DNA of 61,782 nt, taken from assembly GCA_021812785.1 (NCBI GenBank), contig JAKAMR010000002.1, positions 1-61,782 on the forward strand, written 5' to 3'. Position 1 is the stretch's first letter; each line of letters opens with the position of its first letter. A program made the position numbers and the translations under genes. Positions 17,521 through 22,612 of this stretch are shown here, piece after piece. The notes beneath the pieces are model-generated. The model searched no databases, was not told the DNA's origin, and saw only the letters and a program-made list of their open reading frames with translations. The DNA comes from Nitrospirota bacterium (lineage in GTDB: Bacteria > Nitrospirota > Thermodesulfovibrionia > Thermodesulfovibrionales > JdFR-88).

Positions 17521-17727
17521 ATGAGAAACGTCGGGGGCATAGACAGGGTTTTCAGGATAATAGCGGGGATCGTCCTTGCGCTTTTGGCGGCGTTTGCAGG
17601 GATGGCGCCCGGAGTAAGGGTGCTTCTCATTGTGTTTGCCGTGGCAGCTTTTTTCACCGGGGTCTTTGGATTTTGACCGCTGTCCAAGGTGCTGGGTATC
17701 AGCACCTACAAAAAGAAACAGGCCTGA
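17521..17727 (+). CDS. DUF2892 (YgaP-like) membrane protein with in-frame TGA; candidate selenoprotein
   Basis: Small two-helix inner-membrane protein (start MRNVGGIDRVFRI, with GGAGG upstream). The conventional frame stops at TGA 17674-17676 after 51 residues, exactly where DUF2892 proteins usually have cysteine in GFCPLY. Beyond the TGA the frame continues as PLSKVLGISTYKKKQA and stops at 17725; this matches the family ending PLYxLLGISTC except that the last Cys is Tyr. A hairpin fitting the bacterial SECIS pattern follows the TGA. If TGA is read as selenocysteine, the protein has 68 residues with Sec52. The alternative is a recent nonsense mutation with the truncated protein made. Coordinates given are for the readthrough form. 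Confidence 0.6.
17687..17707 (+). promoter_or_regulatory. SECIS-like hairpin after TGA of DUF2892 gene
   Basis: AGGTGCT pairs perfectly with AGCACCT around the loop GGGTATC. The loop begins 17 nt after the TGA, and its first bases are G. Counting from the T of TGA as 1, U17, G23 and U24 coincide with the bases known to matter in the E. coli fdhF element, although U17 is paired here rather than bulged. No T-run follows, so it is not a terminator. Confidence 0.5.
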
Positions 17728-17753
17728 GCATCTATTTGATCTGATCCTTGATC

Positions 17754-18140
17754 ATGGGCCCTCAGCATGTTTACGGGACACTGGCGGATGCGGTAGTGCT
17801 GGTGCATCTCCTCTGGATAGTCTTTCTTTTTACAGGCGGCATCTGGGGAAGAAAATACCTGCCCGTAAGGCTGTTCCATATCTTCGGGCTGGCCCTGGCC
17901 TTCGCGGTTCAGGTCTTCGACTGGTACTGTCCGCTTACCTATCTGGAGGTGTTCCTCAGGCAAAAAGCCGCAAATAATCCCCATGCGGTGTACACAGGCT
18001 CCTTCATTACCCATTACGCGGAAAAACTCATCTATATAAACCTGCCTCGCGGCCTCATAGTCTTTGCAACTATCCTGCTTTGCGGCTTCAACGCTTTTTT
18101 GTACCTGGGAAGACGGAAAAAAAGACCGCGCACATCTTAA
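17754..18140 (+). CDS. DUF2784 membrane protein
   Basis: Small integral membrane protein of about 128 residues with four hydrophobic helices, matching DUF2784: HLLWIVFLFTGG near the N-terminus, the conserved FDWYCPLTYLE segment and the C-terminal YAEKLIYINLP. Function unknown in the literature I can recall. The ATG at 17754 is used; a TTG at 17748 is also in frame and neither has a strong ribosome-binding site, so translation may be coupled to the DUF2892 frame just upstream, which in the readthrough form ends 26 nt earlier. Confidence 0.8.
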   Translation: MGPQHVYGTLADAVVLVHLLWIVFLFTGGIWGRKYLPVRLFHIFGLALAFAVQVFDWYCPLTYLEVFLRQKAANNPHAVYTGSFITHYAEKLIYINLPRGLIVFATILLCGFNAFLYLGRRKKRPRTS

Positions 18141-22276: not shown

Positions 22277-22612
22277 ATGCCCAAAAAAATAAAAACAATG
22301 AGAATAATCAAAATGAGAATTGACTGTTATGTTTCTCCGGGGTGCGGTTCGGAAGAGGCCCTGCGCGAAAATATCCGGCGGGCGCTTGCCCTTGAGGAGG
22401 CCCGGTCGGAGGTGGAATTCCACTCTATAGACAATGAGAAGGCGCTTGCGCTGGGGCTGACCGGCTCTCCCTCCGTGCTCATAAACGGGGAGCAGTTGCA
22501 GCCGCAGGAGAGGGCCGGCTTTTCATGAAGGATGTTCAGTGACGAGTCTGGAAGACTCGCAAATGTGCCTTCGGTTGAGACGCTGCGGCGGGCAATTAGA
22601 AAAACAACATAA
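22277..22612 (+). CDS. Thioredoxin-like protein with in-frame TGA; candidate selenoprotein
   Basis: Small thioredoxin-fold protein. The N-terminal redox motif is CYVSPGC, followed by helix and strand segments and the cis-Pro region TGSPSVLING. The conventional frame stops at TGA 22526-22528 after AGFS. Relatives continue here with a conserved Cys-Arg (typically CRxY followed by a Gly-rich turn and a final PSxExL helix). After the TGA this frame continues RMFSDESGRLANVPSVETL and then RRAIRKTT to TAA at 22610. The match makes the TGA occupy that cysteine. A SECIS-like hairpin follows. Read through, the protein has about 111 residues and would be a selenoprotein; otherwise it is truncated by nonsense mutation. 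The start is uncertain (22277, 22298 or 22313). Confidence 0.65.
22543..22559 (+). promoter_or_regulatory. SECIS-like hairpin after TGA of thioredoxin-like gene
   Basis: CGAGTCT pairs perfectly with AGACTCG around the loop GGA. The loop begins 21 nt after the TGA and its first base is G, which meets the bacterial SECIS rules (loop 16-37 nt downstream, G in the first two positions). No T-run follows it. Confidence 0.5.

Follow-up and report, generated by a model that had tools for sequence, protein, structure and literature searches.

In bacteria, a UGA codon is decoded by SelB carrying Sec-tRNA-Sec when a hairpin of the SECIS type follows it. MerB breaks carbon-mercury bonds, and selenium binds mercury more tightly than sulfur. 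The NmerA domain of mercuric reductase has a fold different from that of a thioredoxin-like domain. In work attributed to Ledwidge and dated 2005, NmerA is said to remove Hg(II) from proteins and to deliver it to the reductase. The family nearest to the gene analysed here is NF049942, the "hypothetical protein DF" of deep-Sep, for which the available text of PMC12013277 gives a single gene with Sec and reports that homologues with TGA were absent elsewhere. Selenium has also been tied to MerB-like and metal(loid) functions through SaoL and other metal-related selenoproteins, and in SaoL the Sec residue lies in the lyase itself, in the motif CU (available text of PMC13188914).

Gene layout and comparison with described families

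The candidate selenoprotein gene lies in a 61,782-nucleotide stretch of DNA, referred to here as the window (Table 1). The first-pass annotation had described a frame running from ATG 22277 to an in-frame TGA at 22526 and on through 27 further codons to a TAA, and rereading the DNA gave the same layout, with 27 sense codons before the TAA at 22610-22612. The proposed start appears less likely, as relatives begin at the Met of the sequence MRIDCY, which makes ATG 22313 the likely start. The 12 residues upstream of MRIDCY are not common to relatives, and the predicted product is therefore 99 rather than 111 residues long. Its only motifs of this kind are CYVSPGC near the start (Cys5 and Cys11) and the predicted Sec72-Arg73, and neither a CxxC nor a UxxC motif of the classical thioredoxin kind occurs in the window protein. 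The gene stands alone, adjoining a porin gene and an acyl-CoA-ligase-type gene. Its 900-aa neighbour has 89% identity to the counterpart in L003 and 87% to that in L002, the closest relatives, with which neighbouring genes are held in common. Searches of the window with Rfam (gathering cut-off) and ARAGORN returned no match.

The predicted structure of the window protein was a thioredoxin-like model with a pLDDT of 94; a search of the PDB by sequence returned weak thioredoxin-like matches only (best E, 0.05). Residues 16-106 aligned to positions 2-96 of the 96 in NF049942 (E, 4e-13). However, the score of 49.2 bits was below the curated cut-off of 70, and the protein was therefore filed as a relative and not as a member. 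Seven TGA-type relatives that were tried scored 37-59 bits, whereas relatives with Cys-Arg came near or over the cut-off (L061, 79 bits; L026, 67; L027, 64), and L061, which is over it, has Cys in the column of the window's TGA. In the available text of PMC12013277, DF has one Sec case, whereas Sec dominates the branch described here. These comparisons support the placement of the window gene in a Sec-rich branch that lies near NF049942, for which a selenoprotein had already been predicted, yet scores below its cut-off. To a predicted selenoprotein family with one reported Sec case, this would add a Sec-rich branch whose members fall short of the present cut-off and are truncated in gene calls.

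Other described systems were less similar. The Thioredoxin_3 and MTH895-ArsE-type thioredoxins (PF13192, TIGR00412) share weak similarity and the thioredoxin-like fold with the window protein, but it falls below every curated cut-off (18.4 versus 24.8 bits for PF13192), and in place of a CxxC motif its second redox residue would be Sec72, far along the chain. Unlike in SaoL, the predicted Sec residue is in a thioredoxin-like domain, which stands alone in the window and ahead of MerB in L005 and L011; no match to the MerB domain (PF03243) was found in the window protein. The likeness to NmerA lies in the proposed role only.

Table 1. Positions of the predicted genes, in-frame UGA codon, hairpins and gene fusions
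Feature	Positions	Strand	Basis or remark
Predicted selenoprotein gene, 99 aa, Sec72, DF-related (NF049942), thioredoxin-like fold	22313..22612	+	Start by homology; ATG 22277 alternative
In-frame TGA, predicted to be read as selenocysteine (residue 72)	22526..22528	+	Column conservation in relatives
SECIS-like hairpin with a stem of 7 bp and a GGA loop that begins 21 nt downstream of the UGA	22543..22559	+	Conservation in relatives
DUF2892 / YgaP-like membrane protein (PF11127), probable selenoprotein	17521..17727	+	Sec-TGA 17674-17676, final stop TGA 17725-17727
SECIS-like hairpin of DUF2892 gene, with 8 bp and a loop of 5 nt that begins 18 nt downstream of the UGA	17687..17707	+	
DUF2784 gene (PF10861)	17748..18140	+	In L003 between the two UGA genes
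Predicted Sec thioredoxin-like domain fused to MerB	L005 8001-8987; L006 864-1850; L009 8001-8987; L011 8001-8984		

Probable decoding of the internal UGA

A scan of genome contigs yielded 28 related loci (L001-L028). The column of the window's UGA holds TGA in 25 of them (L001-L025, counting L022, whose sequence is cut off just past its TGA), Cys in two actinobacterial loci (L026 and L027) and Gln in L028, a distant relative with 34% identity over residues 13-76. When 245 genomes of the phylum to which L003 belongs (Nitrospirae) were sampled, relatives were present in 37, comprising 31 of the TGA type and 6 with Cys and no stop. TGA was followed by Arg in all 30 TGA loci fetched from this sample (19 caught by a script pattern and 11 read from printed translations) and in all three further TGA-type loci, and all six stop-free relatives had Cys then Arg. 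Relatives lacking Sec nearly always have Cys at the position of Sec72. The earlier proposal that the TGA stands in a conserved Cys codon was supported: apart from the distant L028, every relative that was read carries either Sec-UGA or Cys in the aligned column, and the motif given at that stage, Cys-Arg-x-aromatic followed by PSxExL, proved right in the alignment. It had also been asked whether homologues end at this point. A protein search returned 26 proteins, one of them the window's own, and the other 25 all end at the UGA position (24 at GFS and 1 at GST); however, the frame continues as conserved protein in every related locus read far enough. Cys11, the second Cys of CYVSPGC, is invariant in the alignment, and Cys5 is missing in L020, L021, L026 and L027. 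A triad of Cys5, Cys11 and Sec72 was rejected because Cys5 is not conserved.

The UGA form of the gene accompanies the Sec machinery. SelB was over its cut-off in 21 of the 26 genomes of the first loci, namely 20 of 23 with the TGA type (not G004, G006 or G021), one of two with Cys and not in the one with Gln. In the phylum sample, SelB was over the cut-off in 102 of 245 genomes, including 28 of 31 TGA-type genomes versus 74 of 214 others (Fisher P = 2.5e-9, relatedness ignored). Among the 31 TGA-type genomes, SelA was found in 27 and tRNA-Sec (E<=1e-10) in 25, and every genome had at least one of SelB, SelA and tRNA-Sec. The three without SelB over the cut-off were G006, in which SelB is cut by a contig end, and G166 and G109, which have neither SelB nor SelA and tRNA-Sec only. 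The close relative carrying L003 (G003) has SelB (368 bits) and SelA (594 bits) and no strict tRNA-Sec match, and the genome of L002 has SelB (332 bits) and tRNA-Sec (70 bits). Two of the six Cys-type genomes (G260 and G047) have none of the three. In control genomes, the tRNA-Sec search matched 14 of 14 at E<=0.001, 5 of 14 over the Rfam cut-off and 2 of 14 at E<=1e-10, and SelB was over its cut-off in 2 of 14; given these control matches, weak hits to tRNA-Sec were set aside as evidence. Recoding of UGA 22526 as another residue, through a code in which it means Trp or Gly or through insertion of a standard amino acid on readthrough, would agree with a frame that is open once the UGA is read, but is extremely improbable, given that UGA is the ordinary stop of 16 of the 42 window ORFs of at least 200 aa, that the stop-free relatives carry Cys and not Trp or Gly, and that the UGA form accompanies SelB.

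Several loci showed features of their own. L028 (8001-8180) sits in an ars-type neighbourhood, and L025 (4776-5073) consists of two gene halves in different frames, by sequencing error or decay. A divergent TGA-type set (L066, L067, L048-L049 and L051-L057; e.g., IKIDIFMSEICGSYY...LT-TGA-RMY) was also seen, and in two genomes (G006 and G101) such relatives stand beside a typical copy. Downstream of L060 (G047:C181), a thioredoxin-like segment reads TTW-TGA-PACG, its TGA taking the place of the Cys of WCPAC; that genome gave no SelA, SelB or strict tRNA-Sec match. Fifteen stretches of viral contigs matched a pattern, and none of the 15 encodes a relative.

The codons on either side of the UGA were compared for protein constraint. 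Over all pairs of 25 sequences, the 24 codons past the UGA gave a pS of 0.74 and a pN of 0.20 (pN/pS, 0.27), and the 20 codons before it gave 0.80 and 0.25 in 23 sequences, L003 and L010 being left out for length differences. In shifted frames the constraint pattern was gone (pS, 0.28 and 0.25; pN, 0.35 and 0.36). These data support the view that the region past the UGA evolves as protein, like the region before it. Within the hairpin codons pS was 0.62, versus 0.86 in the codons before and 0.77 in those after, as an extra RNA constraint would give.

The first-pass annotation had placed a hairpin with a 7-bp stem and a GGA loop 21 nt after the TGA. The perfect stem (22543-22549 with 22553-22559) and the loop (22550-22552) are as described, but the 21 nt is the distance to the start of the loop, and the stem starts 14 nt after the TGA. 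The bacterial SECIS rule in the available text of PMC13188914 specifies a loop of 3-9 nt, a stem of at least 4 bp, a G in the first two loop positions and a distance of 16-37 nt from the UGA, with an energy limit of -7.5 kcal/mol. Of 25 sequences, 24 agree with this rule in stem, loop and distance (the window and 23 of 24 others, the exception being L015), and in the hairpin kept by these 24 the loop follows the UGA at 20-21 nt. Folded by itself, the hairpin reached the energy limit in 10 of the 25 (the window, at -7.7, and 9 of 24 others), whereas a fold of 54 nt reached it in 24. Taken singly, the window hairpin is unremarkable, since its 61-nt fold (-17.4 kcal/mol; z, -1.27) was equalled in stability by 20 of 200 shuffles; it rises above chance because it is conserved across relatives. 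Against synonymous recodings that keep the peptide and the local codon use, it gave P values of 0.027 (pairs) and 0.013 (local energy), and these combined over 25 sequences to 1e-8 and 2e-11, relatedness ignored. An alignment of 63 columns has 86.9% of its cells paired, versus 22-44% when slid by 1-3 columns. Four of the seven stem pairs have changed on both sides, a result reached by 8 of 500 shuffles, and RNAalifold recovers 6 of the hairpin pairs. In L014 and L007, two amino acids each are changed and the stem pairs are kept.

If UGA 22526 were an ordinary stop, the product would be a 71-aa protein, and what lies beyond would be a remnant, a frame open by chance or a short gene with a start of its own. 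The database gene calls that end there in 25 of 25 other proteins, the unremarkable hairpin of the window taken alone and the use of UGA to end long window ORFs would all fit such a stop. However, a remnant would lose the constraint, the read-through with Cys and the kept UGA, whereas the 3' part shows constraint as protein without a change of frame, stop-free relatives read through with Cys, and the UGA is kept in 25 of 28 loci. An ordinary stop is therefore very unlikely, and with the recoded genome and the chance frame it was rejected on the UGA/Cys column, the stop-free Cys relatives, the UGA stops of the window and pN/pS.

Comparison of these sequences indicates that the internal UGA of 22313-22612 is almost certainly read as Sec, and the fuller reading, in which Sec is combined with the thioredoxin-like fold and a Cys11/Sec72 pair and any metal role is left aside, is hardly less probable. 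SelB with Sec-tRNA-Sec would decode the UGA using the conserved hairpin, the machinery being that seen in relatives. The product, 99 residues long, would consist of one thioredoxin-like domain in which Cys11 lies close to the N-terminus and Sec72, with Arg next to it, far along the chain; Cys11 and Sec72 may form a redox or metal-binding pair.

A second UGA-containing gene in the window

The first-pass annotation had named a second TGA gene starting at 17521. This gene proved real, with a PF11127 match (E, 8.5e-19) and an inner TGA that recurs in relatives. Many other pairs of in-frame TGAs in the window and its relatives were judged by eye to be frames overlapping known genes and were rejected; only 17674 and 22526 were taken as real TGAs common in frame. 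DUF2892 relatives were present in 52 of the 245 phylum-sample genomes, 8 of them with the inner TGA, and SelB was over its cut-off in all 8 of these versus 2 of the 44 others (Fisher P = 6e-8, relatedness ignored). In 20 relatives that were fetched, the column holds a stop in 8 and Cys in 12. These observations suggest that the DUF2892 gene is a probable selenoprotein gene and mark DUF2892 as another family that probably contains selenoproteins. PF11127 is absent from the available text of the selenoprotein review PMC13188914, and the literature search found no paper joining a selenoprotein with DUF2892 or YgaP. In L003, the DUF2892 gene, a DUF2784-like gene and the DF-like gene follow one another within about 1.1 kb. 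The two UGA genes of the window are about 4 kb apart, with genes for an MFS transporter, a ferredoxin and a porin, among others, between them.

Fusions, neighbouring genes and possible role

Four Sec-type relatives (L005, L006, L009 and L011) have a long C-terminal extension. It matches MerB in L005 (E, 5e-29) and L011 (E, 3e-31), and the C-terminal parts of L006 and L009 have 74% and 72% identity to the MerB part of L005. With the L011 fusion as query, 188 proteins were returned. Among the 120 of these that were listed (P0028-P0147), the longest has 305 aa, none carries the core motif of the thioredoxin-like part, no Cys form of the MerB fusion was seen, and 68 start inside the segment just past the Sec codon, 64 of them with MF. 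Because MerB-type proteins start just past the Sec codon, gene callers appear to split these proteins, and many of those listed, filed as alkylmercury lyases, look like truncated C-terminal parts of larger selenoproteins. In L061-L064, all of the Cys type, the domain is followed or preceded by no MerB but is joined to an ArsC-like arsenate reductase, as NCBIfam indicated for L061 and tblastn for all four; L013 is fused to an ArsE-type thioredoxin. The gene fusions tie selenium to mercury and arsenic handling, and a direct test is therefore possible, that is, whether the Sec domain takes Hg(II) from MerB or reduces ArsC.

Some of the loci have nearby genes for ArsR, a MerR-type regulator, an ArsE-type thioredoxin and, at L005, a MerA that scores over its cut-off, as well as ACR3-like, ArsC-like and SaoE/SO_0444-like genes that are under their own cut-offs. 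A mer or ars gene lies within 1.5 kb at 21 of 51 Sec loci, the window being counted (8 mer type and 13 ars type), at 6 of 8 Cys loci, at the Gln locus and at none of 20 control loci around DUF2892 genes. The queries came from three of the tested loci, and without those three the count is 18 of 48 Sec loci. No such gene was found within 1.5 kb at 30 of the 51 Sec loci, among them the window and L001-L003, and nine queries found none in the whole window.

The fusions and neighbours suggest that the domain could be a thiol/selenol partner in metal(loid) detoxification, which would reduce, or take cargo from, MerB- and ArsC-type enzymes, much as NmerA does for mercury. Judged from gene content, a role of the family in thiol/metal(loid) chemistry is somewhat probable, and a metal(loid) thiol/selenol relay is our best guess at its function. 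Alternatively, the protein may be a selenoprotein that acts as a general disulfide reductase or a peroxide-type redox protein, with the mer and ars neighbours reflecting a general need for reductant and not metal binding, and we give this a little under an even chance. The isolated position of the window copy beside the porin and acyl-CoA-ligase-type genes, the window free of mer and ars genes and the Sec loci lacking such neighbours would all agree with a general reductase. The fused ArsC is, by its family name, of a thioredoxin-dependent type, so that reductant supply alone would explain that fusion. However, MerB is fused to the domain in its Sec form, and the control loci are without mer or ars neighbours. 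For the stand-alone window copy, we consider the metal(loid) role less likely than not.

In the part of the literature searched, in which NF049942 came up in one paper, the Sec-rich branch, the MerB fusion of the Sec type, the ArsC fusion of the Cys type and the mer/ars setting are seemingly new. A more specific scheme, which we consider rather unlikely, has the Sec domain as a selenol-based relay for soft metal(loid)s that, in uncultured Nitrospirota, makes up the N-terminal half of a selenium-dependent organomercurial lyase not so far recognised, with a stand-alone form in the window's lineage that works with the nearby DUF2892 protein, a membrane selenoprotein apparently not yet described. 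If this were true, that organomercurial lyase would be annotated today as a plain MerB starting just past the Sec codon.

The loci with ArsC fusions (L061-L064) are of the Cys type, yet their genomes have both SelB and SelA.
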